This document shows, in pieces, positions 8,945 to 17,892 of a stretch of DNA of 21,239 nt; position 1 is the first letter of the stretch, and each line of letters starts with the position of its first letter. The stretch covers positions 1-21,239 of the IMG/VR virus record IMGVR_UViG_3300035670_001412; one strand, written 5' to 3'. This stretch comes from a virus. The translations under genes and the position numbers were made by a program. The notes beneath the pieces are model-generated. The model was given only the letters and a program-made list of their open reading frames with translations. It did not search any database and was not told the DNA's origin.

Positions 8945-8967
8945 CCCATCCTTCGATGGGATTTTTT
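8945..8967 (+). terminator. intrinsic terminator or attenuator abutting the thyX start
   Basis: CCCATC (8945-8950), loop CTTC, GATGGG (8955-8960), then ATTTTTT. The T tract ends directly at the ATG of thyX (8968). In this position the hairpin can both stop transcription into thyX and block ribosome binding, so it is a likely control element. Confidence 0.65.
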
Positions 8968-9633
8968 ATGTCCGTCAAGCTGATCAGTGTTACCCGTCCC
9001 GCTGGGACTACTCCGATGACCGCTGAAGGTATAATGGCTTACTGCGCTAGGGTGTCAAGTCCGAACCAATCCAATCCCGACTATGAAAAGCTGTTGCGCT
9101 ATTGCATCCGTGAGAAGCATTGGAGCGTTTTCGAGATGGCGGATATGACCGTAGAAATTACCACCAGTCGGGCAATCGCCGCACAGATATTGCGCCACCG
9201 GTCGTTCAATTTTCAAGAATTTAGTATGAGATATGCAGAAGCCTTAAACTATGAACCCTGTAGTGCCCGTCGCCAAGATACCAAAAACCGTCAAAACTCT
9301 ATTGATGATCTACCGGTTGATGTAAAGGAAAGCTTCTTGTTTTTCCAAGAACAGGTTTGGGATTTTGCCTATGCCCGATACCAAGAGGCGATCGCCAATG
9401 GGGTAGCCAAGGAATGCGCGAGAATGTTGCTACCCCTCAGCACCCAAACCCGGCTTTATATGAAAGGCTCGGCGCGAAGTTGGATTCACTATTTAGAAGT
9501 GCGTTGTGCCCCAGAGACACAGCTTGAACACAGAAAAATCGCAAGCCAAATTAAGTCAATATTTTGTGAAGAGTTTCCTTCAATCGCCATCGCCTTGGGC
9601 TGGAATGTTCAGGGTAAACTGTTAGATAAATAA
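8968..9633 (+). CDS. thyX: flavin-dependent thymidylate synthase ThyX
   Basis: 221 residues, normal ThyX length. The enzyme makes dTMP from dUMP using FAD, NADPH and methylene-tetrahydrofolate, and so supplies thymidine for phage DNA synthesis. Residues 76-88 are [13 protein letters not shown], the ThyX signature motif (RHR, seven residues, then S-x-R). Residues about 23-60 carry MAYCARVSS and then EKHWSVFEM, also typical of the family, and [13 protein letters not shown] with [11 protein letters not shown] forms the substrate-binding C-terminal half. An upstream in-frame ATG at 8956 falls inside a terminator hairpin, so the start at 8968 ([13 protein letters not shown]) is preferred. No Shine-Dalgarno sequence is seen. 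The gene is transcribed against the flanking portal and terminase genes. It may be phage-borne or host-derived; cyanobacteria also use ThyX. Confidence 0.93.
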
Positions 9634-12236: not shown

Positions 12237-12318
12237 AACTCCCTTTGTTTTGCTCCCTATAGGATAACATTTTACTCAAATCTGATTAAAATGTAATTAC
12301 TCCTAATTGTCAACCGCA

Positions 12319-13020
12319 ATGAGCCGTAAGGAAAAATTACACCAAGGGTGGCACCCTCCGCAGCACTTCAAAGCCTTAACCAGTAACCACTTGAGGGTTT
12401 TAAACGCAATAAAAACCAGCAGGGTAGTAATCGTCAACGGGCCGCCAGGGGCACTGAAAACTTTTTTATCACTACAGTCCGGGCTGAACAGGATGCGGGA
12501 CGGCTACGTTGAACGCATCTTGTACATCAGGCAAAATATCCAACGACCAAACGAAAAGGGACTGGGCTATCGTCAAGGCGACGAAACCGAAAAACTGTCC
12601 CCACTACTTAAGCCAATAGAAGATAACTTAAATGCACTCGTACCCCCTGGTGAGCTTGATTATTTATTGAGGACGAGAAAGATAGAGGGGTCGGACATTG
12701 AGATGATCCGGGGGAGATCGCCGTTGGACACGTTTGTGATTGCGGACGAATGCCAGAACATGGATTTTGACGCAATCAAAACGATTATGACCAGAATATC
12801 AGAAACCAGTCAACTGGTGATGTTGGGTGATTTTAAAGGACAGCGCGACTTGCATGGTAGTGACTTTGACGCTTTTGAGTTGGTGTGCAAGCATTTTGCC
12901 AACGTTGATGGCTTCAGGGTGATTAACCTGAACCACGAAGACATCCTGCGATCGCCATTGATTATCGAGATCCTTCGGACATTTGACCGGATTGATGCCG
13001 ACAGGAAAAAATGTAGGTAA
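12319..13020 (+). CDS. phoH: PhoH-like P-loop ATPase
   Basis: 233 residues from the ATG at 12319; an in-frame TTG lies four codons upstream. PhoH proteins are P-loop ATPases very common in phages, linked to RNA metabolism, with unsettled function. Visible motifs: LTSNHLRVLNAIKTSRVVIV, then Walker A GPPGALKT (41-48), RQNIQRPNEKGLGYRQGD (about 71-88, the family's LGFLPGD-like region), and Walker B VIADECQN (140-147, replacing the common DEAQN). LVMLGDFKGQRD (about 166-177) matches the family's 'GD-x-x-Q-x-D' motif. The Gly before the Walker A Lys is replaced by Leu, which may lower ATP hydrolysis. The gene reads divergently from the terminase group and has its own strong terminator. A HIP1 octamer lies near the 3' end (12948-12955). 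Confidence 0.88.
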   Translation: MSRKEKLHQGWHPPQHFKALTSNHLRVLNAIKTSRVVIVNGPPGALKTFLSLQSGLNRMRDGYVERILYIRQNIQRPNEKGLGYRQGDETEKLSPLLKPIEDNLNALVPPGELDYLLRTRKIEGSDIEMIRGRSPLDTFVIADECQNMDFDAIKTIMTRISETSQLVMLGDFKGQRDLHGSDFDAFELVCKHFANVDGFRVINLNHEDILRSPLIIEILRTFDRIDADRKKCR

Positions 13021-13148: not shown

Positions 13149-14873
13149 TTAAAACGGCAACTCTTTAGGTCGGCATTTGAGATTTTCCTTAAAGTAAACC
13201 GCTGTACCAGATTTTCGAGCTTGCAATAAAATACTTTCAACCCACTCCCATGGCGGCGTAAATTTAACGCGTTTTGGGTCAACCTGCCCGCACGAGTTGC
13301 AGTAAGGGTTTCCGTCTGTTTCGCCACCGATCGCCACCATGTCAAACATTTCTAAATCGGTAAACTCAAGATTGGTTAACAGGGGTTCCAGGGATAGCCA
13401 TTTGACGGGGGCTTTGATTTTAGCGAAAGCATCTTGGGCAATCTTTACCCGCTTTTGCTCATCAACAGTGGTTCCTACCCAGCAGTTATCAGGAAAGCTG
13501 CCGCCTAACTGTTCTCCGATCGCCTGTAATCGTTGCGGGTACTTGGTCAGGAATAAATAGTTCCATTGGGGGTACTTGATGACGGAATCAAAGACTTGCA
13601 TGATCCAATCGTCGGGAACCCACTTGCCAAATAGGTCAGCCATCGAACAGACAAAAACGTTTTTTGCCCAGAGTTTTGCTTGGTCTAAATCAAGGCGACG
13701 TTCTTGGGCTTTTTTGATGATTTCCTGTTCGGTGAATTGGCGGGCGTGTTTAGGCGCATCCAATCGGTAAGGATGAAAAACAGGTTCAAATCCTTTGGGA
13801 TAAACCGCCGCCATACGTTCGTTAGTGGCGATTCGCTCGGCATAACAATAGTTGCAACCGTGAAGGCATCCAGTGACAGGATTCCAAGTTGACCATGCCC
13901 AGTCAATAGATTCATTGGACGTATTAAACGATGGCGAATTTTTTGGCTTGTTGTGCCAAACGTGGATGGTGTAACCGTTTTGATTGATGGTTTCAATGGG
14001 GTTGGGTTCAGGTTTAGGAGGCAAGGGCAATTCTCCTGATGGGACGACCATTGGCTCTGAGGCGGGACTTGGGGTAATCGCTACCTTCCCATCAACTTTT
14101 TCAGTAGTAATTTTGCCAGGATCTAGCTTGATGGTTGATGGGGGAATCGTGCCCGTCATTGCTTCAGTTGCCACCTGATTGGCTGCTGCGTCAATCTCAG
14201 CATTGGCGACAGAACCACCAATCTCCTGAAATTGTCCTTGTGCTTCCTTCTTACGTTGACGGGCTTCCTTTGCCGCTTCTTTTAACGGTTTAGCCCCCAT
14301 GTGAACGTCGTCAAGCAATTCGGGGGCGTGTTTCTGAACGGCAATCGCTGCACTGACATATTCCCGATTAGTGTCAAAGTCTTTAGCTAACTTGTCACGG
14401 GTTTTACCTTTTTCTGATTCATTGCTTGTGCAATTTTTTTGCACAACCTTTTCTTGTCCCCGTCCAAAGTTTTCGCCAGCCTCCCGTTGCCGCTGTTTAG
14501 CCTCTTCTGAGTATTTGGCATATTCAGCGGCTTTAATGGCCACCACTGCAAGCTGTTCCTTGGTTAGGTGGCGGCGTTTTTCGTTTTCAGACCGCACATA
14601 TTGAAGCGGATCGGACGGGGTAAATTCTTCAATACGAACATCTTTTTCGAGAACAATAGAAGCGCAAATCCGGTTGCGTCCGTCAATTAAAAGCCGATCC
14701 TTTGTGACTTTAATGGCGTTCTGAAAACCGTTTTCGTCAACATCTTCCACAAAGCTTGAAAACTCGTCCTCTCCCATAAAAGGCATGACTTCGGCTGCGC
14801 GGTGAACACCGTTTAAGTTGTAGGCTTCAATAGCTTCATTCAGCAAGTCCCTCATTCGTTTACTATGCGACAT
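13149..14873 (-). CDS. ParB-like domain fused to radical-SAM-like Gp37/Gp68 (DUF5131) protein
   Basis: 574 residues from the ATG at 14873-14871, with AAGGAGG five bases upstream. Residues about 25-110 are ParB/Srx-like: NGFQNAIKVTKDRLLIDGRN, then IVLEKDVRI and LTKEQLAVVAIKAAEYAK. A helix-turn-helix-like part follows (about 157-182: KTRDKLAKDFDTNREYVSAA), then a low-complexity linker (about 215-295). Residues about 300-570 are a Gp37/Gp68-family domain: STWNPVTGCLHGCNYCYAER with C336, C340 and C343 in the CxxxCxxC spacing that binds the 4Fe-4S cluster of radical-SAM enzymes. Next come FVCSMADLFG and FLTKYPQRL, then AIGGETDG. A second pair, C525 and C528, could hold another metal. It is probably an rSAM-type enzyme targeted to DNA or RNA by its N-terminal module; the reaction is unknown. 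The methyltransferase-like partner lies two genes upstream. Confidence 0.8.
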   Translation of the reverse strand: MSHSKRMRDLLNEAIEAYNLNGVHRAAEVMPFMGEDEFSSFVEDVDENGFQNAIKVTKDRLLIDGRNRICASIVLEKDVRIEEFTPSDPLQYVRSENEKRRHLTKEQLAVVAIKAAEYAKYSEEAKQRQREAGENFGRGQEKVVQKNCTSNESEKGKTRDKLAKDFDTNREYVSAAIAVQKHAPELLDDVHMGAKPLKEAAKEARQRKKEAQGQFQEIGGSVANAEIDAAANQVATEAMTGTIPPSTIKLDPGKITTEKVDGKVAITPSPASEPMVVPSGELPLPPKPEPNPIETINQNGYTIHVWHNKPKNSPSFNTSNESIDWAWSTWNPVTGCLHGCNYCYAERIATNERMAAVYPKGFEPVFHPYRLDAPKHARQFTEQEIIKKAQERRLDLDQAKLWAKNVFVCSMADLFGKWVPDDWIMQVFDSVIKYPQWNYLFLTKYPQRLQAIGEQLGGSFPDNCWVGTTVDEQKRVKIAQDAFAKIKAPVKWLSLEPLLTNLEFTDLEMFDMVAIGGETDGNPYCNSCGQVDPKRVKFTPPWEWVESILLQARKSGTAVYFKENLKCRPKELPF

Positions 14874-15249
14874 TTTTGCCTCCTTTAAGTTTTTTTAGCT
14901 TGTCGGTTTCGGACAAAATTATTGCAACTTGTTGTGATGTCAATCGACGACGCATCAAATTGCAAGATTGAACATACGCCAACGGATCTGCCGGATCGAC
15001 GATTTCAATATCGACATCTTTTTCAAGGTAAACAGATGCTATTAGTCGGTTGCGTCCGTCAATCAAAAAATTGTCCTTAGTTACCTTGATGGATTGCACG
15101 AATCCATTGTCATAAACATCTGCTATCAACACTTCAAGCTGATTTGCTGACATTAGCGGAAATAGGTTCGCTGCCGGATGAATCCCCTTAAATCCATAGA
15201 CGTTGACGGACTTAATCAAGATTTCTTGCAAATGCTCACTATGCCACAT
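14863..15249 (-). CDS. stand-alone ParB-like protein, truncated paralogue of the next gene
   Basis: 128 residues from the ATG at 15249-15247, with a GGAGG eight bases upstream; upstream in-frame starts lie inside the preceding gene. The whole protein aligns with the N-terminus of the downstream fusion protein: HSEHLQEILIKSVNVYGFKG versus HSKRMRDLLNEAIEAYNLNG, then NGFVQSIKVTKDNFLIDGRN versus NGFQNAIKVTKDRLLIDGRN, and DPADPLAYVQS versus TPSDPLQYVRS. It lacks the helix-turn-helix and radical-SAM parts. Its stop overlaps the next start by 11 bases in the same way as its own start overlaps the preceding stop. It may bind the same nucleic acid target or pair with the fusion protein; whether it has ParB-type CTPase or nuclease activity is unknown. 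Confidence 0.75.
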   Translation of the reverse strand: MWHSEHLQEILIKSVNVYGFKGIHPAANLFPLMSANQLEVLIADVYDNGFVQSIKVTKDNFLIDGRNRLIASVYLEKDVDIEIVDPADPLAYVQSCNLMRRRLTSQQVAIILSETDKLKKLKGGKNVA

Positions 15250-16120
15250 TAAAAATGCCTCCATTATCCGCAAACTCTTTTTTGGTCAAAAACAGTTCAT
15301 TTACTAAATTAAGAAACTCGCTTTCGTTAGTCATCCATTGACTGTAGATGCCCTTGTCCCAATACTTCATTGCGGCGATAATGTCTTTTTGTGTCCGATT
15401 CCTCCAAACAGAAGGAGTGCTGACCGCATAAGCCCAACGACTCTGATCTTTAACTAGGGCTGTAAGATTTAAGTCCAGCCGCCCACCTGTGGAGATAACC
15501 TGTTTTTTGAGTAAATCAAAATTCTCATACCAAGCAAGGCGCTCTTCCAGTTTTAATCTTTTAACCCCCTTAGCGTTGCACCCCATGGTGACCATTGCGG
15601 TCAACAAACTAGACAGAGACAGATATTCGCTCGTTAAACACCATTGGGTTACTGAGTTGGGGTCATGATGGATAAAAACGGGAGATAGTGGACTGATTTT
15701 AGGGAAAAGATACTCTTTAACCCGATCGCAAACAGATTGCTCAGCAGAATCACCATTGATGATTAGCCAATCGTTTTTTTCATAACCAGCAACCAGTTTG
15801 TCGTAAGACGCCCTATCTTTTTCGATTAAAATAACAAAGATGGAATTTTTGCCCATTCTGTCTTTGAACCAATCCGAATGCCGCTGGATTATCTTTGGGC
15901 TTGATGTCCCACTCTCAAAAGAATCAAGCCCGTCGCCAGCGCACAAATCAATAATCACTACCGGCAATCTTGCTTGCCTTTTCAAAACCATGCTATAGGA
16001 AGCTCCAACGTGCGTTCCGAGCAACTTATACAAAAGGCTATGCTTTGCAGGAGTCCTGTCTTCGCTTTGTCCGACATCCATTTTTGTGTGTAAAATAACG
16101 ACATCTGTGATTGTACACAT
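15239..16120 (-). CDS. three-Cys-motif-partner (TcmP)-like methyltransferase-fold protein
   Basis: 293 residues from the ATG at 16120-16118; an ATG at 16081 (MDVGQSEDRTPAKHS) is an equally plausible start. Residues about 54-64 (VVIIDLCAGDG) form the SAM-binding motif I of class I methyltransferases, followed by an acidic strand end (FVILIEKD, about 95-102), GDSAEQS (about 123-129) and FIHHDPNSVTQW (about 149-160). The start 'TPAKHSLLYKLLG' before motif I and the catalytic-looking D-P resemble TcmP proteins. TcmP is known as a conserved neighbour of Gp37/Gp68 three-Cys proteins, which is exactly the partner encoded two genes downstream. The last 11 bases overlap the next start, so the three genes form one operon. 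No substrate can be named. Only 10 bases separate this start from the divergent ribbon-helix-helix gene. Confidence 0.65.
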   Translation of the reverse strand: MCTITDVVILHTKMDVGQSEDRTPAKHSLLYKLLGTHVGASYSMVLKRQARLPVVIIDLCAGDGLDSFESGTSSPKIIQRHSDWFKDRMGKNSIFVILIEKDRASYDKLVAGYEKNDWLIINGDSAEQSVCDRVKEYLFPKISPLSPVFIHHDPNSVTQWCLTSEYLSLSSLLTAMVTMGCNAKGVKRLKLEERLAWYENFDLLKKQVISTGGRLDLNLTALVKDQSRWAYAVSTPSVWRNRTQKDIIAAMKYWDKGIYSQWMTNESEFLNLVNELFLTKKEFADNGGIFNVA

Positions 16121-16130
16121 AATTATCTGC

Positions 16131-16280
16131 CATGACAAGAGCAAATCCACCCACCAGAACCCGGCTATTCCAGCTTCGCCTGTCGGACGGAGAGCGCGAA
16201 AAACTAAGGACAGCCGCCGCCAAAGCCGACCTCTCGGCATCCGAATTCCTAAGAGACTACATCAAGTCACTAGACAACTA
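16131..16280 (+). CDS. 49-residue ribbon-helix-helix DNA-binding protein
   Basis: A short frame from ATG at 16131 to TAA at 16278-16280. The product has a basic start (TRANPPTRTR), a strand LFQLRLSDGE, helix one EREKLRTAAAKA and helix two SASEFLRDYIKSLDN. The pattern 'x-R-L-S-D-x-E-R-x-K-L-(A-rich)-A-x-x-x-x-S-x-S-E-F-L-R-x-Y-I' is that of ribbon-helix-helix (Arc/CopG/MobC-like) proteins, which bind DNA as dimers through the strand. A perfect intrinsic terminator 10 bases after the stop supports a real transcription unit. It is divergent from the methyltransferase-like gene, so it may repress it, and it lies about 320 bases from the TGTTAGT iteron array, a plausible target. The binding partner and site are inferred. 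Confidence 0.75.
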
Positions 16281-16289
16281 ACAAAACCG

Positions 16290-16328
16290 CCCCTTTAAGC
16301 CACGCAACCACCGCTTAAAGGGGTTTTT
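16290..16328 (+). terminator. strong intrinsic terminator of the ribbon-helix-helix gene
   Basis: CCCCTTTAAGC (16290-16300) and GCTTAAAGGGG (16313-16323) form a perfect 11-bp stem with a 12-base loop, followed directly by TTTTT. Confidence 0.9.
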
Positions 16329-16395
16329 ATCTGCAAGCCATTTAGCAGGGCTGGAAGGGCTATTTACGGCTCGCTAATAGCTTATTAACACCAGC

Positions 16396-16418
16396 GGGGG
16401 GAAATGGGATGGGCTGGG
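16396..16418 (+). other. canonical G-quadruplex motif
   Basis: Four runs of three or more G on the plus strand (16396-16401, 16406-16408, 16411-16413, 16416-16418) with loops of 4, 2 and 2 bases. It directly follows an ACCAGCGG copy (16390-16397). A three-run relative (GGGGTGGGGTGGG, 13136-13148) sits just after another ACCAGCGG copy near the end of phoH. Confidence 0.5.
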
Positions 16419-16601
16419 ATGGACAACGCACTGCAAAACGTATCAAGCTGGGCTTCCTATTTGGACACAATACCAATAAGCGATAATACTCTCTAACTAC
16501 TACAAGCATTACAATCTTAAAAAGATTGGTTATAAAATTATATTATTTAATACACTCATATGTCTTACTTTTTTTTGTTCTCTTTTTCTACCCCTCCCCA
16601 T

Positions 16602-17096
16602 AGTGTACTGTTAGTTGTATGTTAGTTATTAGTAAATCCTGTATCCCTTACTCTGTCTACGTTTTGAGTGTACTGTTAGTGTTCTGTTAGTGATAAATTT
16701 ACAGTACATCTCTTTTTGTATCCCTTGCTCTGTATACGTTCTGGCTATGTTTGTCATTTTGGGTGCATTTTTTTAAAAAAATCGCAATTTATTTTCCCTT
16801 GCCCCCCCTTCTCGATTTTTTTGATAGTACATTAGTTTTAAATAATACATTTAATCTGTATTTTTTCGTCCTCTTTTTCGTACTATCAGGCACTTCCCGA
16901 AAAAAAACTGAGGGGGTAAGCGCAAAAGTGGTGTACCATGCCCAAAACCCGCTCTCCGTAAGCGTCCTGGGATTTCATTTTGCACTAACATACTACTAAC
17001 AGAACGCTTTTCAGTACACCCCTGTATCCCTTGCTGTGAGCGGGTTTGAGGGGTGTCATTTTGCAAAAAAAATCACTAACAGAACACTAACAGTAC
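16602..17096. repeat. iteron array: eight TGTTAGT copies in four 11-bp-spaced pairs, candidate origin or partition site
   Basis: TGTTAGT occurs at 16609, 16620, 16674 and 16685, and its complement ACTAACA at 16984, 16995, 17075 and 17086. Each pair is spaced by exactly 11 bp, one helical turn. The left pairs are direct, the right pairs inverted, so the array is a large inverted repeat around about 290 AT-rich bases. The unit at 16670-16694 is an exact 25-bp inverted copy of 17072-17096. A further direct repeat starts GTATCCCTT (16641-16663 and 16718-16740, two mismatches in 23 bases, with a partial third copy at 17024-17035). Helically phased iterons beside an AT-rich core are what plasmid and phage origins or parC-type partition sites look like. 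The neighbouring ribbon-helix-helix and terminase-small-subunit-like genes are candidate binders. No DnaA box consensus was seen. Confidence 0.7.
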
Positions 17097-17128
17097 GATT
17101 TTGCAGGTTTGTAGAGGTCGAAAATCTC

Positions 17129-17160
17129 AAAAAAAAATCCCAAAGCCTTGCGCCTTGGGA
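17129..17160 (-). terminator. intrinsic terminator of the terminase-small-subunit-like gene
   Basis: In the minus direction TCCCAAGGC (17160-17152) pairs with GCTTTGGGA (17146-17138) around a five-base loop, with one wobble, followed by nine T (17137-17129). It ends transcription of the gene at 17194-17892 before the iteron array. Confidence 0.85.
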
Positions 17161-17193
17161 GTTACAGCTACTTTACCTATTATAAAACAAACA

Positions 17194-17892
17194 CTAGTCC
17201 TTACTCCGTTTGCTCTTTTTGTCGTCCCCAACAGCCTCTTCTGCTGGTTTTAATAACGAATTTACGCGACGTTGGATTAGTTCGGCAGACATAGTAACTT
17301 CGAACCCATGAGCGTGTAAAAAGGACATATAACGGTCGGCGCGGCTGTAGGGTGTGGCGTCTTCAGCCAAAGCGTTTGCCGTCTTCAGCATTTCCATGGC
17401 GTCACGATACTCTTTACTTGACCGTGGGTTGATCGTGATAATCAGCGGTGTGCCATCTTCTGATGTCTGCGTAATTTGTTTTTCCGACGAGGGCATCATC
17501 ATGATTTCCTTCGCTCGTTCGATAGCCAAGTCCACGATTTCCATCGTCTGTGCCGTTTGAATGGCGCGACGTTTTTCCCATAGCGTTACGTCACGGCTAT
17601 CTTCGTAGCGTTGAAATATCTGGAACCGTTTTTTCCACATCAGCAACGTTTCTGCTTCAAGCCACAAACGCTCGTCGTCTAAAAAGTCGAAATAAGGCTC
17701 TTCCCCCAGTGCTTGCGCTTCTTTCCACCGCTGGTGCGCGTTATACCCCGACGGACGGTTGCTGGCACAGTAATATAGGCAAAACCTCTCGTACCACTTG
17801 TCGGTTTCTCCCGGCTGTTGCTCCCACGCTGGATCTCTCAGCGTCTTAAGCTCCGTTAGACCAATCCCAGTTGGTGCTTTATATCGTCCCAT
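17194..17892 (-). CDS. phage DNA-binding protein, terminase small subunit candidate
   Basis: 232 residues from the ATG at 17892-17890. The N-terminus has DPAWEQQPGETDKWYERFCL, then YYCASNRPSGYNAHQRW. 'W-E-x-Q-P-G-E-(S/T)-D-x-x-(Y/F)-x-x-F-x-x-Y' followed by a helix-turn-helix-like stretch is a recurring N-terminal pattern in phage proteins annotated as terminase small subunits or DNA-binding proteins. The middle is helical with many Trp and Arg residues (WLEAETLLMWKKRFQIFQRY), then helices with TAQTMEIVDLAIERAKEIMM suited to oligomerisation. The tail (KKSKRSKD) is basic. Small subunits recognise the packaging site, often near their own gene; here the iteron array starts about 100 bases past the 3' end. 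The alternative is a replication or regulatory protein. Its own terminator follows the stop. Confidence 0.55.
   Translation of the reverse strand: MGRYKAPTGIGLTELKTLRDPAWEQQPGETDKWYERFCLYYCASNRPSGYNAHQRWKEAQALGEEPYFDFLDDERLWLEAETLLMWKKRFQIFQRYEDSRDVTLWEKRRAIQTAQTMEIVDLAIERAKEIMMMPSSEKQITQTSEDGTPLIITINPRSSKEYRDAMEMLKTANALAEDATPYSRADRYMSFLHAHGFEVTMSAELIQRRVNSLLKPAEEAVGDDKKSKRSKD

Follow-up and report, generated by a model that had tools for sequence, protein, structure and literature searches.

An iteron-type replication origin is defined by an unwinding-prone tract beside phased, oriented binding sites. In phage P4, two separate iteron regions (ori and crr) are served by one primase-helicase with an origin-binding winged helix, and only one of the two is an origin. 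In SPP1, two origins about 13 kb apart each consist of direct repeats and an AT-rich unwinding element, and one initiator binds both; oriR sits among morons in the late region (PMC6316719). The origins of PICIs and SaPIs are a near precedent alongside oriL and oriR of SPP1; PICI origins are found next to rep, in one copy. A mapped origin of a temperate cyanophage was not found in literature searches.

The DNA analysed here (the window) is a 21,239-bp IMG/VR virus record that is classed as linear and is thus probably a fragment. It contains five HIP1 sites (GCGATCGC), and the named-phage matches of its head protein are Cylindrospermopsis and Synechococcus phages only; the window is therefore assigned to a cyanophage. 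Judged from its sequence, the region 16516-17096 is probably a theta-type replication origin of a temperate cyanophage, read by a phage initiator. The repeat array in this region and its counterparts in related phages appear to be a variant of the known iteron-type phage origins, set apart by inverted paired heptamers, a TATCCC box and the likely initiator. As in SPP1 (oriL/oriR, initiator gp38), two similarly organised putative origins combine repeats with an AT-rich element. In contrast to SPP1, the cyanophage arrays are built from paired heptamers in two inverted arms around a core and carry the additional TATCCC box, a Prim-Pol/DUF3987 protein is the candidate initiator, and the phages themselves are temperate. 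Compared with PICI origins, the arrays are present in two copies away from the Prim-Pol gene, and their strongest AT tract is found on one side only, beyond the iterons. In contrast to ori and crr of P4, the two arrays of a relative are each accompanied by an unwinding tract.

The array of the window forms a non-coding island between two convergent genes, which encode a ribbon-helix-helix and a terminase small subunit-like (terS-like) protein, and between two facing terminator-like hairpins (Table 1). The left hairpin was spotted directly in the sequence; its loop exceeds the limit of the hairpin scan. No integrase or replication gene was recognised within the window. GATC is absent for 1.7 kb (15724-17431), a gap that spans the array, compared with one site per ~260 bp window-wide. 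Elsewhere in the window, one gene product (13149-15273) combines an N-terminal ParB-like part with a C-terminal DUF5131 part and is preceded by a second, short ParB-like protein of 136 aa. The genes for a PhoH-like protein (12307-13020) and a ThyX-type thymidylate synthase (8956-9633) are oriented opposite to the terminase and head genes next to them.

Table 1 Features of the array region and its flanking genes (window coordinates)
Feature	Position	Strand	Remarks
Ribbon-helix-helix protein (NikA-like), 49 aa	16132..16281	+	Adjacent gene; Pfam PF21983
Terminator-like hairpin (CCCCTTTAAG / CTTAAAGGGG, then T5)	16290..16328	+	3' of the ribbon-helix-helix gene; seen in sequence
AT-rich tract, presumed DNA unwinding element	16516..16575	+	Adjoins the array on the left; lowest 60-mer stability in the window
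Pyrimidine-rich tract ending TGTAC	16576..16608	+	Between AT tract and first iteron; 79% pyrimidine
Iteron pair 1, TGTTAGT-N4-TGTTAGT	16609..16626	+	Heptamer starts 16609, 16620
TATCCC box 1 (TGTATCCCTTACTCTGTCTACGTTTTG)	16640..16666	+	Conserved in G001, G010 and G011
Iteron pair 2	16674..16691	+	Heptamer starts 16674, 16685
TATCCC box 2	16717..16743	+	
AT-rich core between the arms	16744..16983	.	Holds the second least stable 60-mer of the window (16807-16866)
Degenerate inverted box of iteron pair 3	16938..16970	-	By eye, from the inward-oriented arm
Iteron pair 3, inverted	16984..17001	-	Heptamer starts 16984, 16995
TATCCC box 3	17023..17049	+	Lies between pairs 3 and 4; 67% identity to box 1
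Iteron pair 4, inverted	17075..17092	-	Heptamer starts 17075, 17086; lies, with pair 2, in an exact 25-bp inverted repeat
Terminator-like hairpin	17138..17160	-	3' of the terS-like gene, facing the hairpin at 16290..16328; hairpin scan
Probable terminase small subunit, 232 aa	17194..17892	-	Adjacent gene; synteny marker

The array comprises eight exact TGTTAGT heptamers in four pairs, two rightward and two leftward, with a spacing of exactly 11 bp within each pair, so that helically phased copies of a putative binding site are present. This arrangement had been described in a first-pass annotation of the window, and the eight heptamers were confirmed at the places given there. It exceeds chance expectation: none of 2000 dinucleotide shuffles of the 801-bp non-coding region (16335-17135) gave four phased pairs of any heptamer, the maximum being two. 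The inverted pairs lie on both sides of the AT-rich core, and the 25-bp exact inversion noted between the two sides is present (16670-16694 / 17072-17096). The direct repeat, previously given as 23 bp, turned out to be longer, with 27 nt in three copies starting at 16640, 16717 and 17023 (100, 89 and 67% identity). An inner inverted repeat, GATAGTAC/GTACTATC, is found in the window as annotated (at 16823 and 16880) and was not seen in the three relatives G001, G010 and G011.

Three features had escaped the first-pass annotation: a longer iteron unit, a box inward of each pair and a probable start of the functional region ahead of the first iteron. The iteron unit is nearer to GTWCTGTTAGT than to plain TGTTAGT, and gtac or tgtac just ahead of the iterons is found in most arms. 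A LexA-type GTTC-N7-GTTC box was considered and dropped, as the heptamer is conserved and the GTWC is not. Inward of each iteron pair, a TATCCCTTRCT box is located, in a degenerate inverted form on at least one right arm. Read inward, an arm consists of gtac-TGTTAGT-N4-TGTTAGT followed after 13-25 bp by TGTATCCCTTRCTCTGTMTACGTTYTG on the left arms; on the right, reading by eye showed this box at pair 3 in degenerate, inverted form.

Three relatives were found, with TerL proteins 58-75% identical to that of the window. G001 (74.7 kb) has a TerL identity of 65-67%. G010 (79.6 kb, TerL 75%) has a 127-bp terminal direct repeat and is therefore probably a closed circle. G011 (46.4 kb) shows 58% identity in TerL and 45% in Prim-Pol. 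The comparison is carried by four phages only, and G001 and G011 share close early genes. The open frame of TerL in G010 (25479-28313), and likewise in G002 and G003, is 911-944 aa long because of an insertion of ~400 residues that looks like an intein and lies close to the ATPase motif in the N-terminal part.

The window and all three relatives have an array of the same design beside the terS-like gene. Each relative has a second array of this design in a region of divergent early genes. Degenerate-pair searches of the whole records placed it at 70.45-70.75 kb in G001 and at 43.50-43.79 kb in G010, in both cases between leftward genes and rightward early genes; in G011 it is found at 18.72-19.04 kb (pair TGTTAGTATTACTCAGCA and inverted TGTTAGCATTACTCAGTA). 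The distance between first and second array is about 10.1, 11.5 or 13.6 kb, and both arrays of a genome have the same orientation. The elements follow each other as AT-only tract, pyrimidine tract, iterons, TATCCC box, core and inverted iterons in each of the six arrays found in the relatives. The window is too short for a second array to be seen; one is predicted in the remainder of its genome, outside the fragment.

A lack of conservation of the 11-bp pairing in relatives had been named beforehand among the grounds for giving up the functional reading; the pairing persists. The spacing is 11 bp in G010, where the terS-side pair reads TGTTGGT-N4-CGTTAGC and keeps it on both sides, and in the second array of G011; in G001, where the heptamer is mostly TGTTAGC, it varies between 9 and 12 bp and is mostly 10. 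The 11-bp pair pattern has five matches in the 79.6 kb of G010, all within the two arrays. The 9-12 bp pattern has nine in G001, one of which (43.08 kb) lies outside the arrays and a cluster upstream of the terS-like gene. The two arrays of one genome share homology in their left arms but for the most part not in their cores, as expected of functional sites under constraint. Two sites per genome with a common motif, homologous left arms and diverged cores argue for a maintained function and against a recent mobile copy.

An IMG/VR scan for TGTTAGT-N4-TGTTAGT returned at least 120 stretches, and among the dense-heptamer ones inspected none had a similar array. Similar DNA was not found in annotated phages or plasmids, nor were prophage relatives among the genome contigs searched. 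Exact-repeat searches for the array in more distant cyanophages (Cr-LKS4, S-CBS4, a G002 segment and others) were negative. Phage contig L189 contains a near-perfect 25-bp TATCCC box (TGTATCCCTTGCTGTGTCTACGTTT; reverse strand, 354-378) without iterons; its surroundings are not cyanophage-like, and the match is probably due to chance or unrelated. In contig L095 (12764-13242), TGTTAGT pairs at 11 bp followed by AACTTTTG are repeated upstream of short genes, in a different context.

Computed duplex stability gave the strongest result and links the arrays to unwinding-prone DNA. Across the whole record of each relative, stability is lowest in two 60-mers, and these are the AT-only tracts that directly adjoin its arrays on the left (starting at 58843 and 70377 in G001, 33228 and 43355 in G010, 4980 and 18613 in G011). 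These tracts reach z values of 5.7-7.0, compared with at most 3.65 elsewhere in the same records and a highest value of 3.93 among 18 control phage loci. The least stable 60-mer of the window also lies directly left of its array (dG -61.9, z 4.0), and the second least stable one inside the core. An AT-rich element of computed low stability is thus adjacent to the iterons in window and relatives, and the functional region probably starts earlier than the first iteron, with this tract. The tract of the window is weaker than those of the relatives, which counts against an origin. The pyrimidine-rich stretch between AT tract and first listed iteron is 16-48 bp long, or 88-119 bp in G010, where it is partly occupied by an extra box; its pyrimidine fraction in the six arrays of the relatives is 68-85%.

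On this anatomy, a phage initiator would bind the phased TGTTAGT pairs of the two arms and might also contact the TATCCC boxes. The bound initiator would bring the inverted arms together, and the resulting strain would open the adjacent AT-rich tract for helicase loading. From sequence patterns we infer initiation at the array, the identity of its binder and looping between the arms. In the three relatives, one origin copy would lie in the late region beside terS and the other in the divergent early-gene region. The array initiator is likely the phage Prim-Pol/DUF3987 primase-helicase, with its gene outside the window; the protein is encoded in all three relatives. Its C-terminal domain is predicted to be a winged helix (pLDDT ~80 over model residues 70-138), and winged-helix PDB entries matched the model with probabilities of 0.9-1.0 and no E-value below 0.001.

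The position of the array between two facing terminators was counted in favour of an origin. Several observations count against it or are neutral. Two origin copies per phage are unusual, and the arrays do not adjoin the Prim-Pol gene, in contrast to PICI origins beside rep or pri-rep; the nearer one is ~8 kb away in G001 and G010. The GC skew at four-fold sites was uninformative, with no switch at the arrays, and the inflection of the raw skew near the second array tracks gene direction. Searches for DnaA boxes gave scattered one-mismatch hits only, with no evident box.

The first-pass annotation had left origin, partition and packaging side by side; the evidence favours the origin. In a packaging (pac or cos) site, the terS-like protein would bind the heptamer pairs on both sides and cleavage would occur in the core, as in pacL-pacC-pacR of SPP1. 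The site resembles SPP1 pac in that repeats lie on both sides of a central segment near terS, and in the window as in all three relatives the terS-like gene has an array next to it. A packaging site was preferred after the first relative and demoted once the second arrays appeared. A site tied to terS should be single, whereas a second complete array is present 10-14 kb away in the early region of all three relatives, far from terS. The extreme unwinding tracts, absent from the pac design, are not expected beside a packaging site either. The terS-like protein, which had been proposed as a binder, shares only 22% identity between window and G001, in contrast to the nearly unchanged heptamers. 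Its assignment is based on phrog_6299 (terS), which two of three family members match weakly; the predicted model (helices, a long hairpin and a beta hairpin) is of low confidence, and its fold search gave no significant match, with weak SPP1-like and G20c TerS hits only. In addition, SF6 TerS was reported to bind pac repeats without sequence specificity (PMC4737164), which was counted against packaging. Overall, a packaging function is unlikely.

Equally improbable is an array that serves solely as operator or enhancer for a phage regulator of the early divergent promoters and, via the second copy, of the late region. The second array is located upstream of rightward early genes, with TTGACA-like sequences just right of it in all three relatives. 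Upstream of its terS-like gene, G001 has two additional inverted iteron pairs (60300-60357; L180 5300-5357) that lie 31 bp apart and lack an AT tract. These pairs, which count against an origin, suggest that the binder may also have a regulatory role, and they are possibly a control site for the same binder. The terS-side array, on the other hand, lies between convergent genes in the window and G010, and behind terminators in the window, where it serves no gene start. No pairs were found near the phage XRE repressor gene in G001 or G010, and the AT tracts would be left unexplained. An operator function of the second array and of the extra G001 pairs is possible and may accompany an origin function, a combination often seen in iterons.

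A partition centromere (parC/parS-like), bound by the ribbon-helix-helix or a ParB-like protein, would agree with heptamers phased at ~11 bp, with the ribbon-helix-helix gene next to the array in the window and G010, and with the ParB-like proteins encoded nearby in the window. A binder would be expected to accompany its site, but G001 and G011 keep both arrays and searches of them gave no ribbon-helix-helix gene (as G011 is a fragment and the completeness of G001 is not proven, gene absences there are uncertain). The ribbon-helix-helix protein, the other binder suggested at first, is therefore unlikely to be a general one, and its gene is probably not part of the array system. A partition NTPase or a ParM/ParR or TubZ/TubR pair was not recognised in the partially annotated genes, the integrase encoded in G001 and G010 means that a plasmid-like lysogen is not implied, and the unwinding tracts are again unaccounted for. 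A centromere is thus very improbable. Hardly credible is an attP used by the phage integrase: a core flanked by paired arm sites is characteristic of lambda-type attP, and a tyrosine integrase is encoded in G001 and G010, but each of these genomes has two arrays with neither beside int (the terS-side one ~15 kb away), and the cores are not conserved between copies. Tn7-like or MITE-like transposon ends, suggested by the inverted ends, were rejected because the arrays occupy matching positions in the relatives and the two copies of a genome have arms, but largely not cores, in common.

With a replication origin as the probable function, the origin is predictable to within ~600 bp, and the second copy in each relative provides an internal control. 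More tentatively, and with somewhat less than even confidence, these phages may form a temperate cyanophage family with two like-designed origins per genome, each with inverted phased-pair arms and a second box by an unwinding tract; a fused Prim-Pol/helicase would be the initiator at both. If true, such a family would join the two-origin layout of SPP1 to the flanking-iteron design that has until now been attributed to phage satellites. Cyanobacterial vectors could also profit from a compact autonomous origin. Should both copies fire, these phages would offer a comparative system for why a phage keeps an early-gene and a late-gene origin, a question raised by SPP1, and for whether the late origin triggers the switch to concatemers.
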